Positions 4,267-21,328 of a stretch of DNA of 51,811 nt are shown here, in pieces. This DNA is from Ruminococcus flavefaciens (GTDB lineage: Bacteria; Bacillota; Clostridia; Oscillospirales; Ruminococcaceae). The stretch lies in the NCBI GenBank assembly GCA_023667045.1, contig JAMPAU010000001.1, positions 1,112,783 through 1,164,593 of the forward strand. The letters are read 5' to 3'. Position numbers and translations under genes: made by a program. The notes under the pieces are model-generated. The model was not told where the DNA came from and ran no database searches. It worked only from the letters and a program-made list of their open reading frames with translations. Each line of letters begins with the position of its first letter. Positions within the stretch are counted from its first letter, which is position 1.

Positions 4267-4309
4267 AATAAATCACACGTGCAGGACTGTGGCTGGTTCT
4301 CAGTACTGC
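4211..4309 (+). promoter_or_regulatory. Structured leader upstream of the major pilin gene
   Basis: An 8-bp closing stem pairs ATTTTATG (4211-4218) with CATAAAAT (4262-4269). It encloses two hairpins, GTCG-CAGC-CGAC (4222-4233) and TCTTT-AGCA-AAAGA (4239-4252), giving a three-way junction. A second hairpin, GCAGGACTG with CAGTACTGC (4281-4309), follows. The pilin start is 41 nt further on. I could not match it to a known riboswitch class. Confidence 0.4.
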
Positions 4310-4350
4310 TAAACCCAATCCCAAAAATATTTTTTAAAGGAGAAAATACT

Positions 4351-6000
4351 ATGAAAAAAACAAAAAAACTGGCGGCTATGATAGCTGCTCTTACTCTTTC
4401 AGCTTGTTCTATCGCTCCTATGGCTATGACTGCTTCAGCAGATGATACACCATCAACAACAATTACTATGAAAGACGGTACAGAGACTAATACTACATCT
4501 ACTTTTGTAGCTTTCAAAATTTTAAATGCATCTGTTAGTGGTGAGGCTTATAATTATACTGTTAATCCGACTTATAGAAATGTACTTAAAACAGCTTTAA
4601 ATGTTACAGCTACAGATGATAGCGAGGCAGATGCAGCTATTATTACAGCTTTAGAAAAGCTTGACACAGAAGGTATACGTACAACTGCTGATACAATTTA
4701 TAAAAGTATTAAAACTGGAAATATGACTCCTGATAAAACTGCTAAAGACGGCGTGTTTAGTGATGTTGAACAGGGTTATTATCTCATTGCTGAAACTGCA
4801 CTTAGTTCTGACAATACAGAAGGTACAATGTCGTTGGTTATGGTAGATACCATGGGTGAAGATAACCTTGAGGTAACTACTAAAAAAGCAGGTCCGTCAT
4901 TCCAGAAAAAACTTAAGGATGTAAATGATTCTGTGGCAAATAGCCTTACTGATTGGCAGGACAGTGCAGACTATGATATCGGTGATGCTGTTCCTTTCCA
5001 GCTTAAAGCTACTCTTCCCGCTGACTATGATAAGTATGACCACTATAAACTCGTATTCCACGATGATTTAAATAAGAATGGTGAGAATAACGTGTTTGAT
5101 TTTGATGCAAATTCAGTTGTAGTTTATGCCGATTTAGATAAAGATGGTGTATGTGATGAGGGCGAAGAAATCAGCACTGCTACTACAAATACTACAGTTG
5201 GAACATCACACACTACTGGTTTTGATTGTGATTTTGAAGTTACAATCGCTGACCTTAAGGCTGAAGCTTTGAGTTCTCTTAATATTACAAAGGACACACC
5301 TATTTATGTTGAGTATACAGCAACATTAAATAGTAATGCTGCACTGGGTAAGACTGGTAACTGGAATGATGCTTATCTTGAATACTCCAACAATCCTTAC
5401 AATGACGGCACAGGTGATACTGACACTACAAGCAAGACACCTGTAGATACTGTTGTAGTATTTACATATAAGACAGTAGTTGACAAGGTTAAAATGAATG
5501 GTACAATTCCTGAATCATTGGCAGGTGCCGTATTTAAACTTGAAAAGTATGATGTAGCAAGCAAGACTTGGGTTGAAAAAACTTTAGTGACATCTGAAGA
5601 TGGTACATCATTCTCAATCACAGGTATTGATGACGGTAACTACAGATTATCAGAAACAACTGCACCTAACGGATATAAAGCTATAGATGGATATATTGAG
5701 TTTACTGTAACAGCAGAACATACTACAGACGGAGATAAGTCAACACTTGCATTAACATCATTGACTGGTAATGTAACAGACGGTGAGATTAATATTCAGA
5801 ATCTTAGTGCAAGTAAAGAAATGGAAGTTGATACAGATTTGTCTACTCTCAAAGCTAAGGTTATCAATACATCAGGCTCTGAACTTCCTTCAACCGGTGG
5901 TATCGGTACAAAAATCTTCTACCTCGGCGGTGGTGCTATGGTAGCAGTAGCTGGCGTATTCCTCATCACAAAGAAGAGAATGGGCAAAAGCGAAAACTAA
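4351..6000 (+). CDS. Major pilin backbone subunit, LPSTG sorting signal
   Basis: Secreted, sortase-polymerised pilin of 549 residues. The ATG at 4351 follows AAAGGAGAAA; an upstream in-frame ATG at 4279 lacks a ribosome binding site and would bury the signal peptide. The signal peptide ends TASA-DD near residue 30. The middle region alternates beta-rich domains, including the acidic calcium-like stretch DLDKDGVCDEG. A C-terminal CnaB/SpaA-type domain begins GAVFKLEKYD and contains the E-box YRLSETTAPNGY, whose Glu catalyses the isopeptide bond. The end is LPSTG, a hydrophobic helix and KKRMGKSEN. Size, E-box and the adjacent sortase C mark it as the shaft subunit. Confidence 0.9.
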   Translation: MKKTKKLAAMIAALTLSACSIAPMAMTASADDTPSTTITMKDGTETNTTSTFVAFKILNASVSGEAYNYTVNPTYRNVLKTALNVTATDDSEADAAIITALEKLDTEGIRTTADTIYKSIKTGNMTPDKTAKDGVFSDVEQGYYLIAETALSSDNTEGTMSLVMVDTMGEDNLEVTTKKAGPSFQKKLKDVNDSVANSLTDWQDSADYDIGDAVPFQLKATLPADYDKYDHYKLVFHDDLNKNGENNVFDFDANSVVVYADLDKDGVCDEGEEISTATTNTTVGTSHTTGFDCDFEVTIADLKAEALSSLNITKDTPIYVEYTATLNSNAALGKTGNWNDAYLEYSNNPYNDGTGDTDTTSKTPVDTVVVFTYKTVVDKVKMNGTIPESLAGAVFKLEKYDVASKTWVEKTLVTSEDGTSFSITGIDDGNYRLSETTAPNGYKAIDGYIEFTVTAEHTTDGDKSTLALTSLTGNVTDGEINIQNLSASKEMEVDTDLSTLKAKVINTSGSELPSTGGIGTKIFYLGGGAMVAVAGVFLITKKRMGKSEN

Positions 6001-6038
6001 TCCGGACAAAAATATTAACGCAACAGTATAAATGACTT

Positions 6039-6066
6039 ACTGCCGACGGAGAAATCTGTCGGCAGT
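6039..6066 (+). promoter_or_regulatory. Stable hairpin between pilin and sortase genes
   Basis: A perfect 9-bp stem, ACTGCCGAC/GTCGGCAGT, with a 10-nt loop and no T-run after it. It is not a standard terminator. In this position it could protect the 3' end of the pilin mRNA or lower sortase expression relative to pilin. Confidence 0.55.
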
Positions 6067-6089
6067 ATCTGTGAAAGGAGGTCGCATGA

Positions 6090-6968
6090 GTGAAGAAAAA
6101 ATCAGGTGTTGTTTCAACAATCCTATTGACAGTCATGTTGCTTGTGGGGCTCTCCGTAATGCTGTACCCCACTGTCAGCGACTGGTGGAACACAAGAGAA
6201 CAGCGTGCGGCTATTGCAAGTTATGAGCGTATTATTACTGAAATGGACAACAGCGAATCAGAAAGAATGATACAGCAGGCTCACGAATACAACGAAAAGC
6301 TAAATGAGGTCTTTGCACCGTTCACGAATTATGAACAGATTTCGGATTATGAAGATATTCTGAATATTTCGGGAACGGGCGTTATGGGCTATATCTCGAT
6401 ACCATTTATCAAGGTAGAACTGCCTATATATCACGGCACAAGCGAAGAAGTCCTCAACATAGCAGCAGGACACCTTAAAGGCTCGTCGTTTCCGGTAGGT
6501 GGAAATAACACCCATGCGGTTATCTCGGCACACAGAGGTCTGCCCTCCGCAAGGCTTTTCACTGACCTCGACAAGCTTGTAGAGGGAGATACTTTCACAA
6601 TAAACGTACTGGGTGAGGTTTACACATACGAGATTGAAAAAATCCTTACAGTTCTGCCCGACGAAATAGACAAGCTGGAAATTATTCCCAACGGCGATTA
6701 CGTCACTTTGATGACCTGCACGCCTTACGGAATAAACACCCACAGACTGCTGTTGCGTTCACACCGCATAGAAACTACATACCACTATGACGCAAAAGTA
6801 GTTGCAGACGCTGTGCAGGTAGACCCTATGCTTGCAGTACCGGCAATAGCCTTGCCGTTTCTGATAATTCTTATATGTTTCTGGGCTGTGAGTAGTAAAA
6901 ATAGAACAACAGTTTCCGGCAAACGTGTATTTGAAATGGTCATAAATAAAAATGAACCGCAGTCATGA
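6090..6968 (+). CDS. srtC: Class C (pilus) sortase
   Basis: Membrane transpeptidase, 292 residues, which joins pilin subunits through their LPxTG motifs. GTG at 6090 is chosen because AAAGGAGG (6075-6082) is at correct spacing and the frame opens with MKKKSGVVSTILLTVMLLVG, an N-terminal membrane anchor. Catalytic residues are His148 (ISAHRGL), Cys210 (TLMTCTPYG) and Arg223 (LLLRSHR). A second membrane segment near the C-terminus (about 247-268) is typical of class C enzymes. It follows the two pilin genes it serves. Its stop codon lies inside the terminator shared with ispF. Confidence 0.95.
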   Translation: MKKKSGVVSTILLTVMLLVGLSVMLYPTVSDWWNTREQRAAIASYERIITEMDNSESERMIQQAHEYNEKLNEVFAPFTNYEQISDYEDILNISGTGVMGYISIPFIKVELPIYHGTSEEVLNIAAGHLKGSSFPVGGNNTHAVISAHRGLPSARLFTDLDKLVEGDTFTINVLGEVYTYEIEKILTVLPDEIDKLEIIPNGDYVTLMTCTPYGINTHRLLLRSHRIETTYHYDAKVVADAVQVDPMLAVPAIALPFLIILICFWAVSSKNRTTVSGKRVFEMVINKNEPQS

Positions 6969-9754: not shown

Positions 9755-9783
9755 TTGACTAATCAAATCTGGTGTGATATAAT
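9755..9783 (+). promoter_or_regulatory. Promoter of the AAA-nuclease pair
   Basis: TTGACT at 9755-9760, a 17-bp spacer and TATAAT at 9778-9783, with TGTGA directly before the -10. The start codon is 57 bp downstream. Confidence 0.75.
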
Positions 9784-9840: not shown

Positions 9841-12800
9841 ATGTCATCTAAAACCATTTCTATGATTAAAAGCACTTCAACAGCAGATAAGAAACTGATG
9901 TCAATTGTTGCACAGTTTTACATGAAATTGCCGGAAGAAGTCATTGACCATGCAATCGAAAATCTTAGCCGTGACGCAAAGCGAAAAGTAAAAAAAGAAA
10001 AGCAGACTGATAAAAAAATACTTATGGCTCTTAATTTGTCTGCTAATAAATTTGCTGACGAAATTTATCAATATCAGCGTGGCAGTATATTATTTTCGCC
10101 CGACGCTGAATATGAGGATATTCTTAATTCATATAACGGCGAAAACTGCATAATGAATACCGTACTTATTCTGAAAAAATGCTGTGACGGCTCTTTTGAA
10201 ATGAAAACAATGGCGGATTTTCTGAAATCAGAACAGTTCACTAAAACCCTCACAGACAATTATAATAACTATGAAGAAACTACTGAAACTGAAGATATTC
10301 CGGAGGAAGAACTTCCGGAAGAAATCGATGAAATCTCAGAAGTACCCGAAGACGAAACCGAAACTGAACCCGAAACAGAATACATTCTGGAGACTGATAT
10401 AAAATCAGACGAAATTTTTACCGTGCCGGAGTTTACAGAAGAAATTAGTGGTGTTGCCGAAGAAATAAGTCTGAAAGTACCGGAAAAAGTTCCGGAAAAG
10501 ATTCAGGAAAAAACCGAATCCGCACCAGTACCCGAAAAGAAAAAATCAAAGGAAACATATTATATAGGTCATATTGAAAAACGTGAAACATATTATAATT
10601 TCGCTCCTCAGTATAAGCTCGAAAAAACTTCTTCAAGGAGAAATCTTATAGAACTCCGACAGGTTGCTGAAACTTTTCCCCCTAATGGCACTATAAACCT
10701 TTCTTATGTACGTTCCGGAGTTTCACAGAGCCAGAAAATAATTGAAAAACTCGACCTTCAGAATACTTTTGCAATTGCATTTGATGAGAGCATTCTTGAA
10801 GAAAACATCAATTACCTTACAGGTGAAAAGCACGGCGATGTCAACCTTAAGATAGACTTGCAGAAAGAATTTGACAATAACCGCAATGCTACTACTTTTT
10901 TCAAGAAAATCGGCGATTTGAAAATTCACAGAATAGCTGAAACAAGCGAGTTTATCCCCGACAGCAGACTTTTCAAGGACTATATTGAAGTAAGCAACGA
11001 TTTTGCACAGGGTGAATGGATTCTTTTACGTCGCTTTAATGACGGTGATGATGTTTCCGCTTATGTGGATATATCCGGACCTTACAGGGTTGATAAAAAT
11101 AATGGCAAGACATATATTCAGCCGAAAGCCGAAAAATCCGGCTATATGATTAACTGCTATAATCAGGATAAGTTAGCATTCGGCATGAGCGAAAGGCAGG
11201 AGTTTGGCTGTGACCCTGTATGTATTCCCTTTGCAGTAGTTGAAGATGAATTTAAGTATAAAAAAGATATTATTTCAGATGAACTGCTTATTAAGTGCAT
11301 ACTCGCCGAAGCCTCAAAGGACTTTTTGAATATAATAAAGAAAAAACCGGAAGAAATGGCTGAAATACTGAGCAGGTCGGCTTTTATCTCAAAGAATATT
11401 CCCGACGAAATAAAGGCTGAGAGACTTGCAAGAGTACGCAAGCTTTTTGCGGATATTCAGAACTATACCGCTGAACAGAAAAAGATTGCTGAAACTTTCC
11501 TGCACGGCTACAGCACGGACAGCGAAATAAAGGAGATTCTTTCAGAAATCATAACATCAAGTCCGGAATTTAAGAGCTTGCAGAAAGAGGTTGAAAAGAA
11601 ATCGAAAGCTGTAAAGACCGCAAAGGCTGAACCTAAGGTTATAACGGTTGACACTGCAAAGACAAAGAAAATTATTGACAGCAATGCGGAAATACAGGAA
11701 CTTGAAAAGAAAATAGCTGAACTTAAAGAACAGTATTCGGCTTTGTCGTCTTACGGCGATATTATCAAGGACATTGAATATCAGAAAGGCATAAGGGCAT
11801 TTCTTTCTGAGGAAAATTCAAGACTTCAGCACAAAAACAGCGAGATAAAAGGAAAGATAAAGTCCACTATCACTGAGCAGGCTAACGAGGTGGGAATAGC
11901 CTTTGACCCGTATGTTTCAAATGCAATGCTTGAAGCGGCAAGTCAGTGGAACAGAAAACAGGAAACGGAGATTTATAAGAGTGCGGTATCATATATTGTT
12001 GAAAAGACAAAAACCTGTCGTCATATGGAAAAAACTGAACTCCGTGACTATCTTATTGATTATGTAAAGCAGTACAGAAATTACAGCACAAATGATATAA
12101 TAAATATGTACGTCTGTATCACACAGGGATTCCTTACGGTATTTTCCGGTCTGCCCGGCACTGGAAAGACTTCTGTCTGCAATATCATAGGAAACAGTCT
12201 CGGTCTTACGGATTTTGGAAACGGCGAAATAAATTACAACCGTTTTGTACCTGTTGCAGTAGAAAAGGGCTGGTCTTCCAAAAAAGACCTCATCGGCTAT
12301 TATAATCCTCTCACACAGAAATACGACAAGAGCAACCGTCGGCTTTATGATTCTCTCATGGTACTTAATGAAGAAAAAGACGACTCGCCTTTTCCGTATC
12401 TTGTGCTTCTTGACGAGGCTAACCTCAGTCCTATGGAATACTATTGGGCAGACTTCATGCAGATTGCCGATAAGTATGACAACAGCGAGGCATATATAAA
12501 TATAGGTCTTGAAAATGACATATATATTCCCGATACACTGCGTTTTGTGGCAACTATAAACAACGACCAGACAACAGAGACTCTTTCGCCGAGACTTCTT
12601 GACCGTGTATGGATTATAAAACTTCCCGATTCTGATATTAAGGAAGAAATACCATGTCCGGCTGAAAAGATTTTCTGGAAAGACCTTTCTGAAACATTCG
12701 GCACTGTTTCTTCTGAAAGTAAGATAAGCTGTGAATCGCTCCTTGAACAGATATTCAGGCTTTTCCAGAATTTCGGAATGGCAGTCAGTCCAAGAATACA

Positions 12801-13065
12801 GTTAAGTATGAGACGTTACATACTTTCTGCACGTGAAGTTATGGAGAGCGTAAACGGCATAACTCCGGAATATATAGCAGTAGACTATGCCGTTATGCAG
12901 AGACTTCTTCCGAAAATAAACGGTCATATCAAGATGTACAGGGAGTTTTTCGACAAGCTTATATTTATCTGCAATACTAATCACCTTGACATGACAAAAA
13001 ATGCACTCGAAGAAATGAAGAATAATTCATCAAGAAATATGGGATACTGTCAGTATCTTTCCTGA
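9841..13065 (+). CDS. McrB-type AAA+ ATPase with long N-terminal region
   Basis: Predicted nucleotide-driven motor of a two-gene restriction-like module, 1074 residues. The C-terminal quarter is a McrB-family AAA+ domain: Walker A GLPGTGKT (770-777), Walker B LVLLDEANLSP (Asp858, Glu859), and the sensor and arginine-finger region FVATINNDQTTETLSPRLLDRVW. The N-terminal part has a helical segment (1-145), an acidic Glu/Pro-rich linker (about 145-235), a beta-rich region (about 240-450) and a coiled coil (about 590-700). No known DNA- or methyl-binding domain is visible to me. The next gene, 14 nt downstream, is the matching nuclease. The nearby ter genes suggest a stress-linked or defence role, which is inference. 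The gene is intact. Confidence 0.85.
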   Translation: MSSKTISMIKSTSTADKKLMSIVAQFYMKLPEEVIDHAIENLSRDAKRKVKKEKQTDKKILMALNLSANKFADEIYQYQRGSILFSPDAEYEDILNSYNGENCIMNTVLILKKCCDGSFEMKTMADFLKSEQFTKTLTDNYNNYEETTETEDIPEEELPEEIDEISEVPEDETETEPETEYILETDIKSDEIFTVPEFTEEISGVAEEISLKVPEKVPEKIQEKTESAPVPEKKKSKETYYIGHIEKRETYYNFAPQYKLEKTSSRRNLIELRQVAETFPPNGTINLSYVRSGVSQSQKIIEKLDLQNTFAIAFDESILEENINYLTGEKHGDVNLKIDLQKEFDNNRNATTFFKKIGDLKIHRIAETSEFIPDSRLFKDYIEVSNDFAQGEWILLRRFNDGDDVSAYVDISGPYRVDKNNGKTYIQPKAEKSGYMINCYNQDKLAFGMSERQEFGCDPVCIPFAVVEDEFKYKKDIISDELLIKCILAEASKDFLNIIKKKPEEMAEILSRSAFISKNIPDEIKAERLARVRKLFADIQNYTAEQKKIAETFLHGYSTDSEIKEILSEIITSSPEFKSLQKEVEKKSKAVKTAKAEPKVITVDTAKTKKIIDSNAEIQELEKKIAELKEQYSALSSYGDIIKDIEYQKGIRAFLSEENSRLQHKNSEIKGKIKSTITEQANEVGIAFDPYVSNAMLEAASQWNRKQETEIYKSAVSYIVEKTKTCRHMEKTELRDYLIDYVKQYRNYSTNDIINMYVCITQGFLTVFSGLPGTGKTSVCNIIGNSLGLTDFGNGEINYNRFVPVAVEKGWSSKKDLIGYYNPLTQKYDKSNRRLYDSLMVLNEEKDDSPFPYLVLLDEANLSPMEYYWADFMQIADKYDNSEAYINIGLENDIYIPDTLRFVATINNDQTTETLSPRLLDRVWIIKLPDSDIKEEIPCPAEKIFWKDLSETFGTVSSESKISCESLLEQIFRLFQNFGMAVSPRIQLSMRRYILSAREVMESVNGITPEYIAVDYAVMQRLLPKINGHIKMYREFFDKLIFICNTNHLDMTKNALEEMKNNSSRNMGYCQYLS

Positions 13066-13079
13066 CGGGGAGTATATCT

Positions 13080-14849
13080 ATGAAGTTACTATTAAAATCA
13101 CAGAATCACGGTTCTGCTGAAATACCCATGCATGAAGAAGACATTATGTCTTTTCAGGAAAAAGATGACCTGCTCGCAAGCAGTATATATGTATACAACG
13201 ACGATGAATATAATTGTTTTTCGCTTATTGACAGCAGTGAATATATTTCTGATTTCTATATAAATGACGAGGCAGTACAGACAGAACGCACTGACGCTGT
13301 AAAAAATATCTATGAGTTTGGCGAGGATAAGAGGATTTTTATGCAGTGTTTCGGCGTGGTGCAGATAAAAGCCGTAATCTCCGGAAAAGTCTATGTTTCA
13401 GACAGCATTTCCATTATGGTGACCTATAACAGCCGTAACAAGAATGTCATAAAGATGATTGACTATATATACGACAAGGGCGAGGAGTACCTTTACGGTG
13501 ACTATATAAGCCTTGACGAAATCGGCGAAAACGGCAATATGTCTATCGAATCAAAATTCAGATTTCTTGACGGCGTGATAGAAATATACGAGCAGTTCTT
13601 TACTTATTTTCAGAGTTCGCCGAAAACTAAACAGATAACCGGTGAAACTGTAGGAAAGTTCTATAAGCTTGATTCAGTTTCACCTAAAACAATACAATAT
13701 ATAGCTTCCCACCCTGAAGAACTTTATGAAGTTGATTTCAGAACAGGAATAACTTACGGGAAAAGAAATTTTCAGCCAGAAAATACACTTATTTCAAGCG
13801 TTTCATACACTCGCAACGTATATGAAAACAGTGTTGTTATGAGTTTCATATCGACTATAATTTCAGAACTGGAGCGTTCAAGGGAGGATATTGAAAATAC
13901 CTCTGATACGGAAGACGTTTATCGTTACGGTCAGTATTTTGAATCAAAGAAATATATATATCGTTTCAGAAAAAAATCCTCTGCCGAGTATATCAGAAAA
14001 ATTGATGAATATATTGAACACTTTCAGATGTTGTGGTTCAGATACAGAAAGATATTCAATGCGGACGATATTTATATAGACTATCTGCCCGAATATACCG
14101 ATACTTTCCGGCTTGTAACGCCCTACAGGGCAGTATATCAGAAGATATACGAGTGGTTTCAGTACGGCGGACACAGTTCGGCAAAGAGTCAGCTTCTTCT
14201 CAGCTTTATTTCAACAAGCAAGATATATGAATATTACTGTCTCATAAAGCTGATAGTAACTATGCGTGAAGAAATGAACTGCACTCTTATTGAAGAAAAA
14301 ACAGAGAGATTTGAGTATGCTGAAACAAAGCACTATTCAAATACCTACTGTAATAATACGTTCTTTTTCCGGAGCGGTGACGGCAGTGAAATAACCCTCT
14401 ATTTTCAGCCGGTAATATACGGCAAAATATCCTTTCCGAGACCTAACGATATTATGCTTTACCGCAACAGGTTTGCGAGCATAACCAGTTGCAAGGGCAA
14501 TACCTATACGCCGGATTATCTTATCAAAGTAAGCCGTAACGGTTCGTCAAAGTATGTCATCATGGACGCTAAATTCAGCTCCATGCAGACTGTTGAAAAC
14601 GACAGGCTTATTGAACTCGTTTACAAGTATCTCTTTTCAATAAGCACTTTGGACGAAAATGACAGGATTGAAGGCATGATGGTGCTTTGCGGAAAAGATG
14701 TCCCTGAAAACAAAGTATACAATCTGCATGATATATCAGAAAGTATGAATAAATGTGTAACTCCTTTTTCGTATATTGTAAATCTTTCCGGAGCTGATAC
14801 CGGAGACAATACCGTTATAAAAGACGTACTTTCACAGATTATGCAATAG
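13080..14849 (+). CDS. DUF2357-type PD-(D/E)XK nuclease, partner of the AAA+ ATPase
   Basis: McrC-like partner of 589 residues. The C-terminal third carries a PD-(D/E)XK nuclease core: TPDYLIK with Asp479 and VIMDAKFSS with Asp496 and Lys498, the spacing expected of this fold and of DUF524 proteins. The larger N-terminal region resembles DUF2357 proteins, which usually sit beside McrB-like ATPases. GGGGAG precedes the ATG, and it follows the ATPase gene by 14 nt. It would cut DNA (or possibly RNA) when the ATPase is activated; substrate and methyl dependence cannot be read from sequence. Assignment to DUF2357/DUF524 is from memory of the family and should be checked by a profile search. Confidence 0.8.
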   Translation: MKLLLKSQNHGSAEIPMHEEDIMSFQEKDDLLASSIYVYNDDEYNCFSLIDSSEYISDFYINDEAVQTERTDAVKNIYEFGEDKRIFMQCFGVVQIKAVISGKVYVSDSISIMVTYNSRNKNVIKMIDYIYDKGEEYLYGDYISLDEIGENGNMSIESKFRFLDGVIEIYEQFFTYFQSSPKTKQITGETVGKFYKLDSVSPKTIQYIASHPEELYEVDFRTGITYGKRNFQPENTLISSVSYTRNVYENSVVMSFISTIISELERSREDIENTSDTEDVYRYGQYFESKKYIYRFRKKSSAEYIRKIDEYIEHFQMLWFRYRKIFNADDIYIDYLPEYTDTFRLVTPYRAVYQKIYEWFQYGGHSSAKSQLLLSFISTSKIYEYYCLIKLIVTMREEMNCTLIEEKTERFEYAETKHYSNTYCNNTFFFRSGDGSEITLYFQPVIYGKISFPRPNDIMLYRNRFASITSCKGNTYTPDYLIKVSRNGSSKYVIMDAKFSSMQTVENDRLIELVYKYLFSISTLDENDRIEGMMVLCGKDVPENKVYNLHDISESMNKCVTPFSYIVNLSGADTGDNTVIKDVLSQIMQ

Positions 14850-14880
14850 GAAATATTTTTATATACTTCCATAATAATAC

Positions 14881-14910
14881 TTGACAGATTTATAAAAAAT
14901 ATGGTATACT
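14881..14910 (+). promoter_or_regulatory. Promoter of the rhomboid-YceG-TelA-TerD genes
   Basis: TTGACA at 14881-14886, an 18-bp spacer and TATACT at 14905-14910 with TGG before it. It separates the ter block from the AAA-nuclease pair, so the two may be separate transcripts or linked by readthrough; no terminator is visible between them. Confidence 0.75.
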
Positions 14911-14956
14911 TTAATTGATTTGATTTTTATTATTCGAGACTGCGGAGAAAATATAT

Positions 14957-15547
14957 ATGAGTAAAAATGATTCACATAAATCCGGCGGAAAGATAGCTTT
15001 CAACTCGCCTGTTGTACTGGGATTTACTGCAATATGTCTGGTGTCACTTCTGCTGAGTATGGTCACGCATGGTGCAAGCAATAACCTTATGTTCAGCGTT
15101 TACCGTTCATCACTGCTTGACCCTTTCACATATGTGCGGTTTTTCGGTCATGTATTCGGTCACGCCTCATGGGAGCATTTTATCAATAATATCATGTATA
15201 TTCTGCTTATAGGACCTCTGCTTGAAGAAAAATACGGCAAGACTGAAATGATTATGATTATTGCGGTCACTGCACTTGTTACCGGACTTATAAATTTCAT
15301 ATTTTTCCCACACGTCTGTCTTTTAGGAGCAAGCGGAGTTGTTTTCGCTTTTATTCTCCTTTCGTCTTTTACGAGTTTTCAGAATGGAAAAATACCGGTT
15401 ACTTTCTTGCTTGTTGCGGTCATATATATCGGACAGCAGGTATACAACGGAGTTTTTTCACACAATAATATTTCAGAGCTGACACATATAATCGGCGGAA
15501 TCGTCGGCTCGGCTTTCGGTTTCGCTGAAAATAAAATCAAGAGGTGA
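14957..15547 (+). CDS. Rhomboid family intramembrane serine protease
   Basis: Membrane protein of 196 residues with about six transmembrane helices. Rhomboid hallmarks are HFINNIMYI (oxyanion Asn region), the catalytic serine motif GASGV (Ser126) and the catalytic histidine ELTHIIGG (His177) followed by the G-x3-G helix. Both members of the Ser-His dyad are present. It cleaves transmembrane helices of partner proteins; none is known here. It starts the second transcript of the locus, and the YceG-like gene begins 7 nt after its stop, so the two are probably co-translated. A rhomboid in a ter cluster is unusual to my knowledge. Confidence 0.93.
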   Translation: MSKNDSHKSGGKIAFNSPVVLGFTAICLVSLLLSMVTHGASNNLMFSVYRSSLLDPFTYVRFFGHVFGHASWEHFINNIMYILLIGPLLEEKYGKTEMIMIIAVTALVTGLINFIFFPHVCLLGASGVVFAFILLSSFTSFQNGKIPVTFLLVAVIYIGQQVYNGVFSHNNISELTHIIGGIVGSAFGFAENKIKR

Positions 15548-15554
15548 CGTGTTA

Positions 15555-17945
15555 ATGTTTCAGCATATAAAAATCGGTTCTCTTGATGACTATTTCTTGA
15601 ATCTGAATCAGAGAAACGGCAACAGCGTATTTTTTTACAGGATAAATTCCTACAGCGAAAAGATATGGGACTTTCTGTGCAGATACTACGATGAGGCACG
15701 GAAAAACGGCGTTATAATTGACGGGCGTATTCCTAATGTAGACCAGAATCAGCTTTCATACTACTATGAAATGATGGGCGAAGATTTCAGCATGGATAAG
15801 CAGTTTATAATGACAAGTCTGCAAAAGTGGCTACCAAGAATGAACGCAATCCAGCGTAACGAGATAAGCGGTGCTATGTACGATGTACTCTATGGACTGT
15901 CCTTAAAAGGAAAAAATCAGAATATTTTAAAAAACGCATATATAAAGTTCATGTGCTGGCTGTATTACAGGTTTGAGAGCCTAACAAGCCGTCTCGGTGA
16001 AAATAGTCTGCCTAAAATATTCTGCAACGGTATAGGCAGTCATTATGAACTCATGCTTTTGTCTATGCTTTCGGGTGCAGGCTGTGATATAGTCCTTGTA
16101 CAGACTGCTGGAAACACTCAGTATGACAGTTACGACCCGACTTCCGAAATCTCAGACATATGGGCAGATACTGGTACTTCTTTTCCGGCTGACTTTTCAG
16201 TGAAAAAGATACAGCAGGCTGTTGCAGAAAAAATCAATGCCGTGAGCGTATGCGGACAAAAACCGGCTTATACGGTTGAGACAAACGGCTGGGCAAGGGG
16301 CGATGGATTAGATGATATACTTACACCGCCGTCCAAAAGAATTGAAATCCCCGACGTTATCGGTAATATATTCTATCAGATAAACGGCGTATACAGTCGT
16401 GCAGACTATGTAAATGAACTTATTTCTTTCAGAAATACTCTTAACTCTCAGAAAAGGAACTTTATAGTTGTAAACGGCGAAATTGACGAGCCATCATATG
16501 AGGAAATTTCGGCTATAAAAAGAAGTAATTACAGTAGTCCGGCAATGGCAGTCACTGAACTGGCAAGAAATATAAACTCATTACAGGATTCCAAACTACA
16601 GCAGATGATAAGATATGAATTTTCTCAGATTATGCTTAAATATTCCGGAGATTATTCTATAAACAGGTTTGTCAATATGTGCGTGTACGTCCTCTGCTGG
16701 CTTAAAAGGTGGCAGAAACAGCTTTTTTCCAACTGGAAGAAAGATTCTCTGCCGTGCTTTGTATTCTTTAACTGTTCTATGGACGAAAACCAGTCGGCTT
16801 TTGCTGAGATTCTTTCAGCACTTCCGGTTGACGTGCTTATACTTAATCCAGCAATGAAAAATATCTATCAGATAAATAATCAGAATTTAGTGGAGTTTAC
16901 TTATGACAGTCCGCTTGATATTGAGGCATTCCCCGACGGCGTGGCAATGAGAGCCGGAACTGTTGCATATCATGCAGAGCGTGAACTTGATACCCTTATG
17001 TATCAAGATACCGGAATATACCGAAATCATCAGTATGCAAAAGCTTCTTCAATAGTTCTTGATACTATGTTTGAGGAAATTGAAATACTTTGGAATGAAG
17101 AACTCAAATACCGCCCTAATTTCTCGACAGAAAACGGCGAGGTTATGATACCGGTATTTTTTGCAAAAGTCTCCGGTGTAAAGGACGGCAATGTAAAAGC
17201 CTACTGGCAGTTTGTCAAGAGACTTATGACGGAAGATACTGTTGTGATAAACGGCTATCAGAGAACTACTGCAAATCCGCACTCAGCAAACGCCAACGTT
17301 TATTCAAGCGGAAGTATGAATACACGTTCTCTCGGTAGCGTGAACCCTTATTCACTTGGCAACGCTAATCCGTATTCTGCCAATGTACGCAGTACAGCTC
17401 CGGCACAGCAGGGGAATACCTCACAGTCGGCGGTTGCTTTCTGGAAAAACGGCGTTTTACAGCGTACAGCTATAAAAAACAGTCCTAACTATCAGTATAA
17501 AGTTTTAAGGGAAGAAATGCAGGAGCATATTCTTGATAAATTGCAGATGCTCATTGAAAGCCGTATAATAAAAGGAACTTTTGAAAACGGCATGGAATAC
17601 AAGATAATCTCCACAATTCTTGACCTTGACAAAGAAATAGTCAGAAAATTACAGAATTTTGATTTTACAAAGAAAAATCCGAAAGTTCTGTATATAAACA
17701 CAGGTGAAAACGCCATAACGGTTGAGCAGGCTATTGTTATGGAGTTTCTAAGTATGGCGGGATTCGACATACTATTTATAATCCCGACCGGTTACTGTAA
17801 TGTTGAAAATCATTACAGTCGGTCAATAATAAGTGAACATCAGACAGGTGAATATATGTATGATATGAAATACCCTGATTTTTCACGTATCTCAGCAGGG
17901 TCACGCCAGCCGTGGCACAAAAAATTATTCGGAAGAGGTGTTTGA
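15555..17945 (+). CDS. YceG-like protein (Ter-associated biosynthetic module)
   Basis: A protein of 796 residues, larger than Bacillus YceG (about 540). The ATG at 15555 sits well spaced from AAGAGGTGA; the GTG at 15549 is too close. It contains three similar alpha/beta units, each a Pro, a hydrophobic strand ending in Asn, a helix and a strand ending in Asp: LPKIFCNG (about 153), LPCFVFFN (about 400) and NPKVLYIN (about 709). The first two are also preceded by a shared CWL motif. An Asn/Ser low-complexity stretch with NPYS repeats (about 573-620) separates the second and third units. YceG-family proteins are proposed to work with TelA in making a small molecule in Ter systems; no activity is proven. 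The telA gene starts 1 nt after its stop. Confidence 0.7.
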   Translation: MFQHIKIGSLDDYFLNLNQRNGNSVFFYRINSYSEKIWDFLCRYYDEARKNGVIIDGRIPNVDQNQLSYYYEMMGEDFSMDKQFIMTSLQKWLPRMNAIQRNEISGAMYDVLYGLSLKGKNQNILKNAYIKFMCWLYYRFESLTSRLGENSLPKIFCNGIGSHYELMLLSMLSGAGCDIVLVQTAGNTQYDSYDPTSEISDIWADTGTSFPADFSVKKIQQAVAEKINAVSVCGQKPAYTVETNGWARGDGLDDILTPPSKRIEIPDVIGNIFYQINGVYSRADYVNELISFRNTLNSQKRNFIVVNGEIDEPSYEEISAIKRSNYSSPAMAVTELARNINSLQDSKLQQMIRYEFSQIMLKYSGDYSINRFVNMCVYVLCWLKRWQKQLFSNWKKDSLPCFVFFNCSMDENQSAFAEILSALPVDVLILNPAMKNIYQINNQNLVEFTYDSPLDIEAFPDGVAMRAGTVAYHAERELDTLMYQDTGIYRNHQYAKASSIVLDTMFEEIEILWNEELKYRPNFSTENGEVMIPVFFAKVSGVKDGNVKAYWQFVKRLMTEDTVVINGYQRTTANPHSANANVYSSGSMNTRSLGSVNPYSLGNANPYSANVRSTAPAQQGNTSQSAVAFWKNGVLQRTAIKNSPNYQYKVLREEMQEHILDKLQMLIESRIIKGTFENGMEYKIISTILDLDKEIVRKLQNFDFTKKNPKVLYINTGENAITVEQAIVMEFLSMAGFDILFIIPTGYCNVENHYSRSIISEHQTGEYMYDMKYPDFSRISAGSRQPWHKKLFGRGV

Positions 17946-17946
17946 A

Positions 17947-19110
17947 ATGGGAATTGACCTTTCAAGAGCAAAACCACAGGCAAACGAAAATACTGTTACA
18001 GCACAGCCGGAAGTTATACAACAGCCGGAAGTTGAGGTTGTACAGCAGTACGATATAGTTGCCGACAGACAGGAAATGAATAATCAGCTTGTAGGTTCAG
18101 AAGAAGTTGACAGGCTCGCAAGCGAGATTGTTATTGATGACATGACAACTATCGTATCATTCGGTGCAGACGCAGCAGATGAAATCTCAAAGGCTTCTGA
18201 TGTCGTACTCAACAGCATGAGCATGACGCAGATTAACGACTCCGGTCAGATGCTTACAGCACTTGCCAAAATTATGGAGCAGTTTGACATTGACGAAATC
18301 AAGGAAGAACCGGGTTTCTTTAAGAAGATGTTCGGCAATGCTAAAAAGCAACTGGAAAAAATCCTTAACAAGTATCACACTATGGGCGACGAGGTTGACA
18401 AAATCTATGTTCAGCTCAGAAAGTATGAAGACGAAATCAAGCAGGCAAACAAAAAGCTCGACCAGATGTTTAACGCAAACGTTGAATACTACCACAAGCT
18501 TGTAAAGTACATTCTCGCAGGTGAACAGGGCTGTAGGGAGATTGAGGCATACCTCGAACAGCGTAGACAGGATATGGCTACTACCGGCGATAATTCTATA
18601 CAGTTTGAAATCCAGAATCTTGAACAGGCTCTTATGATGCTTGAACAGAGAACACAGGATTTGAGAACGGCAGAGAGCATAGCTATGCAGTCCGTACCTA
18701 TGATAAAGATGATGTCATTCAGCAATATGAATCTTGTCAGAAAAATCAACTCTGCATTTATCGTAACTCTACCTGTATTCAAGCAGGCACTCGCACAGGC
18801 TATGATGCTTAAACGTCAGAAGATACAGGCTGAGGCTATGTCGGCTCTTGACGAAAAGACAAATGAAATGCTTATCAAAAATGCACAGAATACCGTTGAG
18901 CAGTCCAAGATGATAGCAAGAATGGCTTCCGGAAGTTCAATAAAGATTGAAACTCTTGAAAAGTCATGGCAGACTATCATGAACGGTATCGACGAAACAA
19001 GACAGATTCAGGAAGACGCACGCAAACAGCGTAAAGACGACCAGATTAAACTTCAGGCTATCAAGAATGATTTCAACAAGAGATACAGTATGCCTAACAG
19101 CAACAAGTAA
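17947..19110 (+). CDS. telA: TelA/YaaN family toxic anion resistance protein
   Basis: Cytoplasmic protein of 387 residues, normal for TelA. GGAAGAGG (17931-17938) fixes the ATG at 17947; a GTG at 17938 overlaps that site. After a variable N-terminus (to about residue 60, with Gln/Glu/Pro repeats such as QPEVIQQPEVEVVQQ) the protein is mainly long helices, including GFFKKMFGNAKKQLEKILNKY and a Gln/Met-rich middle. Family members affect tellurite and antimicrobial resistance, and they co-occur with TerD and YceG. It sits between these genes here, in the same order class as the Bacillus yceCDEFGH cluster but rearranged. A degenerate copy of its last 98 residues follows directly. Confidence 0.88.
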   Translation: MGIDLSRAKPQANENTVTAQPEVIQQPEVEVVQQYDIVADRQEMNNQLVGSEEVDRLASEIVIDDMTTIVSFGADAADEISKASDVVLNSMSMTQINDSGQMLTALAKIMEQFDIDEIKEEPGFFKKMFGNAKKQLEKILNKYHTMGDEVDKIYVQLRKYEDEIKQANKKLDQMFNANVEYYHKLVKYILAGEQGCREIEAYLEQRRQDMATTGDNSIQFEIQNLEQALMMLEQRTQDLRTAESIAMQSVPMIKMMSFSNMNLVRKINSAFIVTLPVFKQALAQAMMLKRQKIQAEAMSALDEKTNEMLIKNAQNTVEQSKMIARMASGSSIKIETLEKSWQTIMNGIDETRQIQEDARKQRKDDQIKLQAIKNDFNKRYSMPNSNK

Positions 19111-19142
19111 TTTTTTCCGTTATGGGAATTTTCAGCAGAAAA

Positions 19143-19168
19143 TCCGGACTTTTTTAAAAAAGTCCGGA
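19143..19168. repeat. Perfect 26-bp palindrome after telA
   Basis: A 13-bp perfect dyad: TCCGGACTTTTTT followed immediately by its complement, with no loop. It lies 33 bp after the telA stop and 3 bp before homology to telA resumes. It lacks a trailing T-run, so it is not a classic terminator. It may be an operator, an RNA processing site or a scar of the duplication. Confidence 0.7.
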
Positions 19169-19170
19169 AA

Positions 19171-19470
19171 CATCAGAAGGCACAGGCAAAAAATATTTCA
19201 GTCCTTGACAAAGAAACAAACAAAATGCTTGTTAATTTACAGCAAAATACTGCTGAACATTCTCAGATGATAGCAAAAATGACATCTGAGACATCTATCA
19301 AGGTTGATACTATTGAAACACAATGGAATGCTAATATGAACGCTGTAAGCGGAGTACGGAAGATTAACGAAAATGCACGTATTCAGCATAAAAGCGAACA
19401 GTCAAGACTACAGGCTATCAAGGATAGTTTCAATAGTTTTTATACCATGCCTTATTCAAAAAAACAAAGG
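19171..19470 (+). pseudogene. Remnant duplicate of the telA C-terminus
   Basis: The frame reads [20 protein letters not shown] to YTMPYSKK and aligns without gaps to the last 98 residues of the adjacent TelA, with about half of positions identical (for example LQAIK, MIA, SIK). It has no start codon with a ribosome binding site. No stop occurs within it, and the codon matching the TelA stop is CAA, so the frame runs open into terD at 19483. It is an old partial tandem duplication. The lack of stops may be chance or may reflect selection for a TelA-TerD fusion. Confidence 0.75.
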
Positions 19471-19482
19471 AGGATTCTGATT

Positions 19483-20064
19483 ATGCCTATAAATCTTTCA
19501 AAGGGTCAGAAAATTGACCTCACAAAAACAAATCCCGGTCTGAAAAACATAATGGTAGGTCTCGGCTGGGACGTTAACCTTTTCGATTCCGGTTCAGCTT
19601 TTGACCTTGATGCAGCCGCTTTTATGGCTGGTGCTAACGGCAAGTGTCCGAAAGATACGGATTTCATTTTTTACGGAAATCTCAAACATTCTTCCGGCTC
19701 TGTTGAACACATGGGCGACAACCTCACCGGCGAGGGAGAGGGCGACGACGAACAGATTAAAATAGACCTCTCTAAAATTCCGGCGAATATCGAAAAAATC
19801 GCCTTTACTGTAACTATATACGACGCTGAAAACAGAAGACAGAATTTCGGTCAAGTATCTAATGCCTTTATCAGAATCGTCAATATCGACACTAATGAAG
19901 AACTTATCCGCTATGACTTGGGTGAGGATTTCTCTATTGAAACGGCTGTCGTTGTCGGCGAACTCTACAAGCATAACGGCGAATGGAAGTTCAACGCCAT
20001 AGGAAGCGGTTTTCAAGGCGGACTTGCCGCACTGTGCGGTCATTACGGAATTGACGCAGAATAA
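19483..20064 (+). CDS. terD: TerD family calcium-binding protein, copy 1
   Basis: Cytoplasmic stress protein of 193 residues. TerD domains fold as a beta sandwich with bound calcium. AAAGGAGG at good spacing sets the ATG at 19483, although the frame is open upstream into the telA remnant. Motifs are [43 protein letters not shown] (acidic calcium site) and the C-terminal [11 protein letters not shown]. It is very similar to copy 2, which points to tandem duplication. TerD proteins are linked to tellurite, phage and oxidative stress resistance; the real signal is unsettled. Confidence 0.95.
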
Positions 20065-20099
20065 TTCTGAAATAAATTTATATAAAGGAGTTTTTTAAT

Positions 20100-20681
20100 A
20101 TGCCAGTTAGTTTAAGCAAGGGACAGAAAATCAGTCTCACAAAGGGAAATCCCGGACTTAAAAAAGTTGTTGTAGGTCTCGGCTGGGACGTTAACGCCTT
20201 TGATACAGGTTCAGCTTTTGACCTCGATTCTTCCGCTTTTCTTCTTACAGATTCTGGAAAAGTTTCAAAGCCTGAGGACTTTGTTTTCTATGGAAATCTC
20301 AATCACCCGTCTGGAGCTGTTTCACACTGTGGCGACAACCTCACTGGAGCAGGCGACGGCGACGACGAACAGATTAAAATAGACCTCTCTAAAGTTCCGG
20401 CAGAAATCACAAAGATTGACTTCACCGTTACTATCCACGAGGCAGAGGCAAGAAGACAGAATTTCGGACAGGTAGGTAATTCTTTCATAAGAATATACAA
20501 CGAGGAAACAGGCGAAGAAATTCTCCGCTATGACTTGGGCGAAGATTTCTCTATTGAAACTGCCGCTGTATTCGGCGAACTCTACAAGCACGGCGACGAA
20601 TGGAAATTCAATGCTATTGGTTCTGGCTATCAGGGCGGACTTGCTGCACTCTGTGGTGCATTCGGCGTTGATGTTGAATAA
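20100..20681 (+). CDS. terD: TerD family calcium-binding protein, copy 2
   Basis: A second 193-residue TerD protein. AAAGGAG lies upstream of the ATG, and the gap to copy 1 is 35 nt. Motifs repeat those of copy 1: [60 protein letters not shown] and [13 protein letters not shown]. All acidic calcium ligands I can identify in copy 1 are kept. It is probably cytoplasmic and co-expressed with its neighbours. Retention of paralogues side by side is usual in ter and yce loci, where they may form mixed complexes. Confidence 0.95.
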
Positions 20682-20699
20682 GATATGGAGTTTTTGGAA

Positions 20700-21287
20700 A
20701 TGGCAGTTAGTTTAATGAAAGGGCAGAAAATAAGTCTGTCAAAAGAATGTGCAGGTCTTTCAAGTGTTACCGTTGGTCTTGGCTGGGACGAGGCACAGAA
20801 GAAAAAGGGGCTTTTTTCAAGAAAAGAACGTGCGATAGATTGTGACGCATCTGCAATTCTCCTCACAGACGGAAAACTTGCCGGCAAAGAAGATATTGTT
20901 TATTACGCACATCTCAATCATAATTCCGGAAGTGTAGTACACAGAGGTGACAACCTCACTGGTGCAGGCGAGGGCGACGACGAGCAGATTATGGTTGACC
21001 TTGCACGTGTTCCGCACAATGTAGACAGGATAGTTTTTGTTGTTAATATCTATCAGGCTGTACAGCGTGGACAGCATTTCGGTATGATAAAAAACGCATT
21101 TATCAGAATTGTTGACAACAGAAACAACACCGAGATATGCCGTTACAACCTTACAGATGATTACAACGGCTGTATGGCTATGATTTTCGGCGAAATATAC
21201 AAGCATAACGGCGAATGGAAGTTCAATGCTGTGGGACAGGGTACAGCAGACCCCGGTCTCAGCGAACTTGCCAACAGATTCAGATAA
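20700..21287 (+). CDS. TerD family protein, divergent copy 3
   Basis: A 195-residue TerD homologue. The ATG at 20700 is preferred because GGAG lies at 20687-20690; an earlier ATG at 20685 overlaps that site. It keeps LMKGQKISLSK, GLGWDE and [15 protein letters not shown]. Between GLGWDE and the second acidic motif (AIDCDASAILL) the usual acidic loop is replaced by a basic one, QKKKGLFSRKERAI. The C-terminus GLSELANRFR also differs from the GGLAALCG of copies 1 and 2. The basic loop could bind nucleic acid or another partner, which is inference. It is the last gene of the locus, before the terminator at 21295. Confidence 0.92.
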   Translation: MAVSLMKGQKISLSKECAGLSSVTVGLGWDEAQKKKGLFSRKERAIDCDASAILLTDGKLAGKEDIVYYAHLNHNSGSVVHRGDNLTGAGEGDDEQIMVDLARVPHNVDRIVFVVNIYQAVQRGQHFGMIKNAFIRIVDNRNNTEICRYNLTDDYNGCMAMIFGEIYKHNGEWKFNAVGQGTADPGLSELANRFR

Positions 21288-21294
21288 AAAACTT

Positions 21295-21328
21295 CCGGCA
21301 TGGGAAAAGCTCCTGTGCCGGTTTTTTT
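21295..21328 (+). terminator. Terminator of the ter locus
   Basis: CCGGCA (21295-21300) pairs with TGCCGG (21316-21321), with an inner GGGA/TCCT helix, followed by T7. Confidence 0.85.

Follow-up and report, generated by a model that had tools for sequence, protein, structure and literature searches.

Distribution of roles in the ter model

The mechanism by which ter proteins protect against phages, colicins and toxic compounds is a long-standing question. According to the available part of the published model (PMC7824862), PRTases and HAD enzymes carry out signal synthesis, TerB and TerD are possible sensors, TerC is the membrane component, and TelA and TerF contribute sub-membrane structures. 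The stretch of DNA analysed here, referred to as the window, comprises 51,811 nt of a 3.64 Mb genome that is 99.99% complete and carries a compact set of ter genes directly behind a McrB/McrC-type pair. Do the pair and the ter genes work together, or are they merely inherited together? Which enzymes, if any, make a signal in such genomes?

Organization of the locus

An earlier note, made from the letters alone, had proposed a run of eight genes, and an ORF check combined with Pfam confirms their identity, coordinates and strand. All are on the + strand and encode a McrB-like AAA+ protein (9841..13065), a McrC-like protein (13080..14849), a rhomboid intramembrane protease whose motif is intact (14957..15547; Pfam, alignment), a YceG_bac protein matched in three Pfam stretches (15549..17945), TelA (17938..19110), TerD1 (19483..20064), TerD2 (20100..20681) and TerD3 (20685..21287), the last with a Pfam match from residue 6 on. 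A terminator-like hairpin follows on the same strand (21295..21321). Promoter-like sites, each with 11 of 12 consensus bases, are found on the + strand 5' of McrB (9755..9783, conserved in 10 aligned loci) and 5' of the rhomboid (14881..14910, conserved in 14 aligned loci), the second where the earlier note had placed a promoter. Since the pair and the ter core each have a conserved promoter of their own, separate transcripts are possible.

DNA comparison reveals that the 3' end of TelA is partly duplicated (19168..19464, + strand); the copy is 69% identical to the original over 267 bp and has an open frame that runs on into TerD1. A longer TerD1 ORF, from 19225, starts within this duplicate; the TerD1 start is at 19483. 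The TelA-TerD1 junction in most other loci has short gaps only, and in locus L087 it holds an unrelated lipoprotein-like ORF.

The McrB-McrC pair

The McrB-like protein comprises a helical N-domain, a disordered linker (residues 142-235), a beta-rich part, a coiled coil and the AAA+ module. Its AAA Pfam match lies slightly below the cut-off; Walker A and Walker B are intact in the alignment. Predicted helices 606-687 and 690-723 would form the long coiled coil, in a model of low to middling confidence. The McrC-like protein combines DUF2357 with an intact PD-DxK nuclease (DUF2357 and PDDEXK_7 are slightly above the Pfam cut-off), and the nuclease residues Pro478, Asp479, Asp496 and Lys498 are invariant across 12 aligned rows. 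The motif Asn907-x-Asp909 (NxD) is present in all ten aligned McrB rows in place of the NxxD GTPase signature of classical McrBC, which is why we do not file the pair under that heading. On motif and domain architecture the pair is a predicted NxD-type McrBC nuclease, and by analogy we infer that it cuts foreign nucleic acid.

The NxD signature defines a branch of McrBC that includes the CoCoNuTs and CoCoPALMs, as set out in the available text of PMC11090510. The window pair resembles the systems described there in the NxD motif, the long coiled coil before the AAA+ module and the DUF2357 partner. It differs in having Gln or Arg after the motif where Glu or Asp is usual, in its intact PD-DxK site, and in that no HEPN or TerY-P partner is seen. 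The main text of that paper mentions neither TerD nor TelA nor a rhomboid. Domains of CoCoNuT type (CSD/OB, Ig, zinc ribbon, HEPN) gave no Pfam hit in the block and may be below Pfam's reach. In PADLOC the two proteins match the paired candidate models PDC-M26A (McrB, 3e-21) and PDC-M26B (McrC, 6e-4), with partial coverage only, over residues 525-875 of 1074 and 352-502 of 589, respectively.

Linkage of the pair to the ter genes

Three surveys of overlapping genomes covered 119 relatives, 125 genomes of the genus and the genome_contigs collection (84,980 species). Among the 119 relatives, the McrC search matched 12 genomes, nine with a close McrC (at least 64% identity, the window's own genome included) and three with a distant one (38%). 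YceG was found in 21 relatives. In all nine genomes with a close McrC it shares the McrC contig, at a distance of a few kb, and it is absent from the three with a distant McrC. Twelve of the 21 YceG genomes are without the pair; AAA-only hits at about 30% identity, in a search matching 40 of the 119 genomes, were not scored as the pair. In the genus set 18 genomes have a McrC match, 15 close (at least 57%, own included) and the same three distant. The rhomboid and YceG are directly 3' of the close McrC in 15/15 genomes, one of these McrC (in G518) being a fragment at a contig end, and neither gene occurs within 1.5 kb of McrC in the three distant genomes. The genome_contigs scan gave 27 relatives. 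Rhomboid, YceG and TelA are all present at the 13 close loci, and ter genes are present at none of the 14 distant loci within the flanking DNA scanned, some of it short (5.1 kb for L097, 3.6 kb for L099).

Because every one of the 15 genomes with a close McrC has rhomboid and YceG directly downstream, the link between pair and ter genes is no chance sighting. The association put forward in the earlier note therefore stands among close relatives (15/15); it does not extend to distant pairs (0/14), nor to the YceG genomes without the pair (12/21). The close relatives are mostly labelled Ruminococcus, with two labelled Clostridia bacterium and Alistipes senegalensis. Distant McrB/McrC pairs were also seen on three IMG/VR contigs (L146, L147 and L148), which fits mobility of the free-standing form.

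The ter core and the signal-synthesis enzymes

What does the ter region look like where the pair is missing? There are 12 pair-less YceG loci, and the gene 5' of YceG is visible in ten of them (L068 and L069 end near a contig edge). In five of these ten, all within the genus, that gene is a rhomboid, and by gene order the rhomboid is part of the ter core in the genus. The core is rhomboid-YceG-TelA with three TerD genes, and other members of the genus have rhomboid-YceG-TelA without McrBC. Recurrent in pair-less YceG genomes are C-C_Bond_Lyase, StiP with PELOTA, PRTase_2 with TRSP, and a HAD phosphatase.

A genome-wide search covered StiP, C-C lyase and PRTase_2. StiP occurs in 16 of the 119 relatives: ten of the 12 pair-less YceG genomes, none of the nine that carry the pair and six of the 98 without YceG. 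C-C lyase and PRTase_2, counting hits over the cut-off, are each present in 10/12 pair-less YceG genomes. None of the three enzymes was found over the cut-off in the nine pair-bearing genomes, which are 68 to 99.99% complete. A Fisher exact test of StiP against the pair gives p 2.2e-4 with shared ancestry ignored, a value that overstates the pattern because the nine genomes are one clade, so that in effect a single gain and a single loss are counted.

YceG and the signal module are not strictly linked. StiP shares the YceG contig in five of its ten pair-less YceG genomes and is on another contig in the other five, in addition to its presence in the six relatives without YceG. The sister of the pair-linked YceG clade, genome G035, has rhomboid-YceG-TelA on a 6 kb contig with no McrBC alongside, and StiP, C-C lyase and PRTase_2 are all on a different contig from YceG. 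Two pair-less YceG genomes, G066 (a fragmented MAG) and G083 (100% complete), have no StiP; G083 has one weak PRTase_2 hit, containing a stop. Since these two are without both StiP and the pair, loss of the module is independent of the pair.

A TerC search that matches 9 of 14 control genomes found nothing in the 21 YceG genomes. For that reason, and because abbreviated ter operons are published (PMC7824862, available part), we call the locus a ter variant and not a full system. At L062 (genome G024) and L063 (G028), SbcC/SbcD-like genes, called by clustering and by Pfam, respectively, are within a few genes of TerD and YceG; both genomes carry StiP.

Comparison with known systems

The title of the 2012 paper of Anantharaman, Iyer and Aravind on Ter-dependent stress response systems reportedly names a nucleic-acid-processing theme. 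As far as the accessible descriptions of such systems go, the window is alike in having TelA with TerD and in placing ter genes next to a nucleic-acid-processing system. It is unlike them in that PRTase_2, StiP and C-C lyase (0/9 genomes) and TerC (0/21) were not found, that a rhomboid stands ahead of YceG, and that the partner is a McrBC-type pair.

In B. subtilis we take yceH to be of the TelA family and yceC to yceE to be of the TerD family. In the part of PMC3498285 available, yceG and yceH belong to one stress-regulated operon, yceCDEFGH, and the window likewise has yceG together with yceH. The listed operon differs in having neither rhomboid nor McrBC, and its YceF is a TerC protein (PMC12096827, available part), of which none was found here. 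Among the matches listed, no title or abstract joins McrBC, TerD, TelA, YceG and rhomboid, and the ter gene contexts of 2012 may include similar arrangements. DNA-processing partners of ter loci are already known, as are NxD McrBC systems; what is unusual here is the pattern of substitution.

One clade and one chromosomal site

A YceG tree, from which proteins of 600 aa or less at pair-linked loci and of under 700 aa at other loci were excluded, places the 14 pair-linked YceG in a single clade with support 100/100. HtrA is upstream of the pair in nine of the ten named loci with visible upstream sequence, which makes this one shared site. Downstream, Rrf2 is present in 8/8 loci of sufficient length, and CysK in six of these eight (not in L079 and L082). 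Given such figures for HtrA and Rrf2, the synteny of unrelated neighbours matches that of the pair-ter block itself. A search for HtrA in 70 genomes of the genus found eight with at least 78% identity, and all eight carry the pair. With one clade, mostly one site and housekeeping flanks that are equally conserved, adjacency is no proof of cooperation.

At the tenth locus, L085, an ORF that we judge by eye from its sequence to be transposase-like (L085:3-527) is directly 5' of McrB. A 48-residue stretch after TerD3 in L087 (L087:18743-18949) is 83% identical to it. The two observations hint at possible insertion-sequence activity at the block edges. At L117 (G044) Trp genes lie beside a HtrA homologue in an order unlike that of the window; the DNA separating them contains neither ter genes nor McrBC.

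Within the clade (7 to 12 loci per gene), mean pairwise identity is lowest for McrB (62%) and McrC (65%), then 69% for a cohesin-type gene, 70% for YceG, 77% for Rrf2, 80% for TerD3, 81% for HtrA, 82% for the rhomboid, 84% for IspF, 86% for TelA, 87% for CysK and IspD, 90% for TerD1 and 91% for TerD2. Mirror-tree comparisons used the 9 of 12 loci with all 11 genes, HtrA distances being removed, and 4,999 permutations; partial Mantel tests are liberal. The positive control, McrB-McrC, gives a partial r of 0.77 (p 0.0002), and McrB-YceG gives 0.60 (p 0.0002). Values are 0.38 for McrC-rhomboid (p 0.015), 0.37 for McrC-TelA (p 0.027), 0.26 for McrC-YceG (p 0.07; range 0.25-0.32), 0.24 for McrB-rhomboid (p 0.11) and 0.21 for McrB-TelA (p 0.16; range 0.20-0.24). 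YceG-TelA, a pair expected to correlate, reaches 0.14 (p 0.22; range 0.11-0.19). Removal of both HtrA and TerD2 gives -0.54 for McrB-TerD1, -0.68 for McrC-TerD1 and 0.37 for McrB against the neighbouring cohesin-type gene. The results are mixed and exploratory, and point at YceG as the first partner candidate for McrB.

Do the pair and the ter core cooperate?

Cooperation is plausible. We read the locus, with a confidence that stops just short of even, as a ter variant belonging to a single Ruminococcus clade, in which an NxD McrBC nuclease occupies the place that signalling genes usually hold beside the core. The PRTase, StiP and C-C lyase of most YceG relatives are the proposed makers of a nucleoside-like alarm signal. 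In this clade these enzymes were not found and the predicted NxD pair is fixed directly 5' of the core, with its own putative promoter, which hints at nuclease cutting as a stand-in for chemical signalling. From McrBC biology, McrB would form a ring, find its target via the parts ahead of the coiled coil and drive McrC to cut nucleic acid. By the ter model in the literature, a sub-membrane layer of TerD, TelA and YceG would react to envelope attack, and the rhomboid may be its membrane component, TerC not having been found. The likeliest arrangement would set the nuclease ring next to this envelope-facing layer. Pair and core may then act in a common response: the ter layer would detect entry or slow it, and the nuclease would be the executor that replaces a diffusible signal. 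This is the least supported step of the scheme. The model of the earlier note survives in part: sensing by the ter proteins and cutting by the nuclease are still plausible, and its small molecule made by YceG found no support. It is unlikely that the coupling is tighter still, such that rhomboid-YceG-TelA-TerD senses envelope attack and positions or unleashes the NxD McrBC at the site of entry. This would come about by proteolytic release or by direct YceG-McrB contact, and a tethered executor would have been swapped in for the diffusible nucleoside-like signal.

Could the two parts simply be independent neighbours? A free-standing NxD McrBC pair may have landed once beside a ter/YceG operon, where the chromosome is stable, and been co-inherited since without cooperating, a serious prospect that we also place somewhat below even. 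That the pair and core have stayed together in 15/15 genomes, despite divergence of McrB and McrC to a mean identity of 62-65%, sits awkwardly with it, as do the McrB-YceG mirror-tree signal and the fact that signal enzymes are missing exactly in the pair-bearing clade. Nevertheless, none of the 14 distant free-standing pairs has ter genes in the flanking DNA scanned, pair and core have conserved promoters of their own, the flanks equal the block in synteny within a single clade, and G066 and G083 are without the signal module yet gained no McrBC. It is very improbable that the pair has instead taken on a housekeeping role, in division or maintenance of the envelope for instance, with the ter core in the same envelope function. 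Every clade member seen has the pair, which is not the patchy distribution of a defence gene, and PcdA offers a precedent for co-option of McrB (PMC10602043, available part). However, PcdA is without the Walker A motif and a McrC partner; we rejected a PcdA-type co-opted McrB, with its degraded Walker A and missing McrC, since both features are intact here.

A lineage that has kept the ter core, with a nuclease pair fixed alongside and none of the proposed signal enzymes found, presents a clean test case. Are TerD, TelA and YceG functional without the signal? Is a nuclease able to replace it? A second testable lead is that the rhomboid may partner YceG in genomes in which no TerC was found.

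Other genes in the window and genome

Window positions 4279-6968, 5' of IspF and IspD, hold what by eye we take from the sequence to be a surface protein whose C-terminal signal is of the sortase type, with a sortase-like gene after it. The same genome has three more TerD genes at two other sites, L074 (G000:C46:24001-44000) and L075 (G000:C40:1-13702), where they adjoin AIM24-family proteins. At L074 there is, in addition, an ORF grouped with P-type ATPases by clustering.
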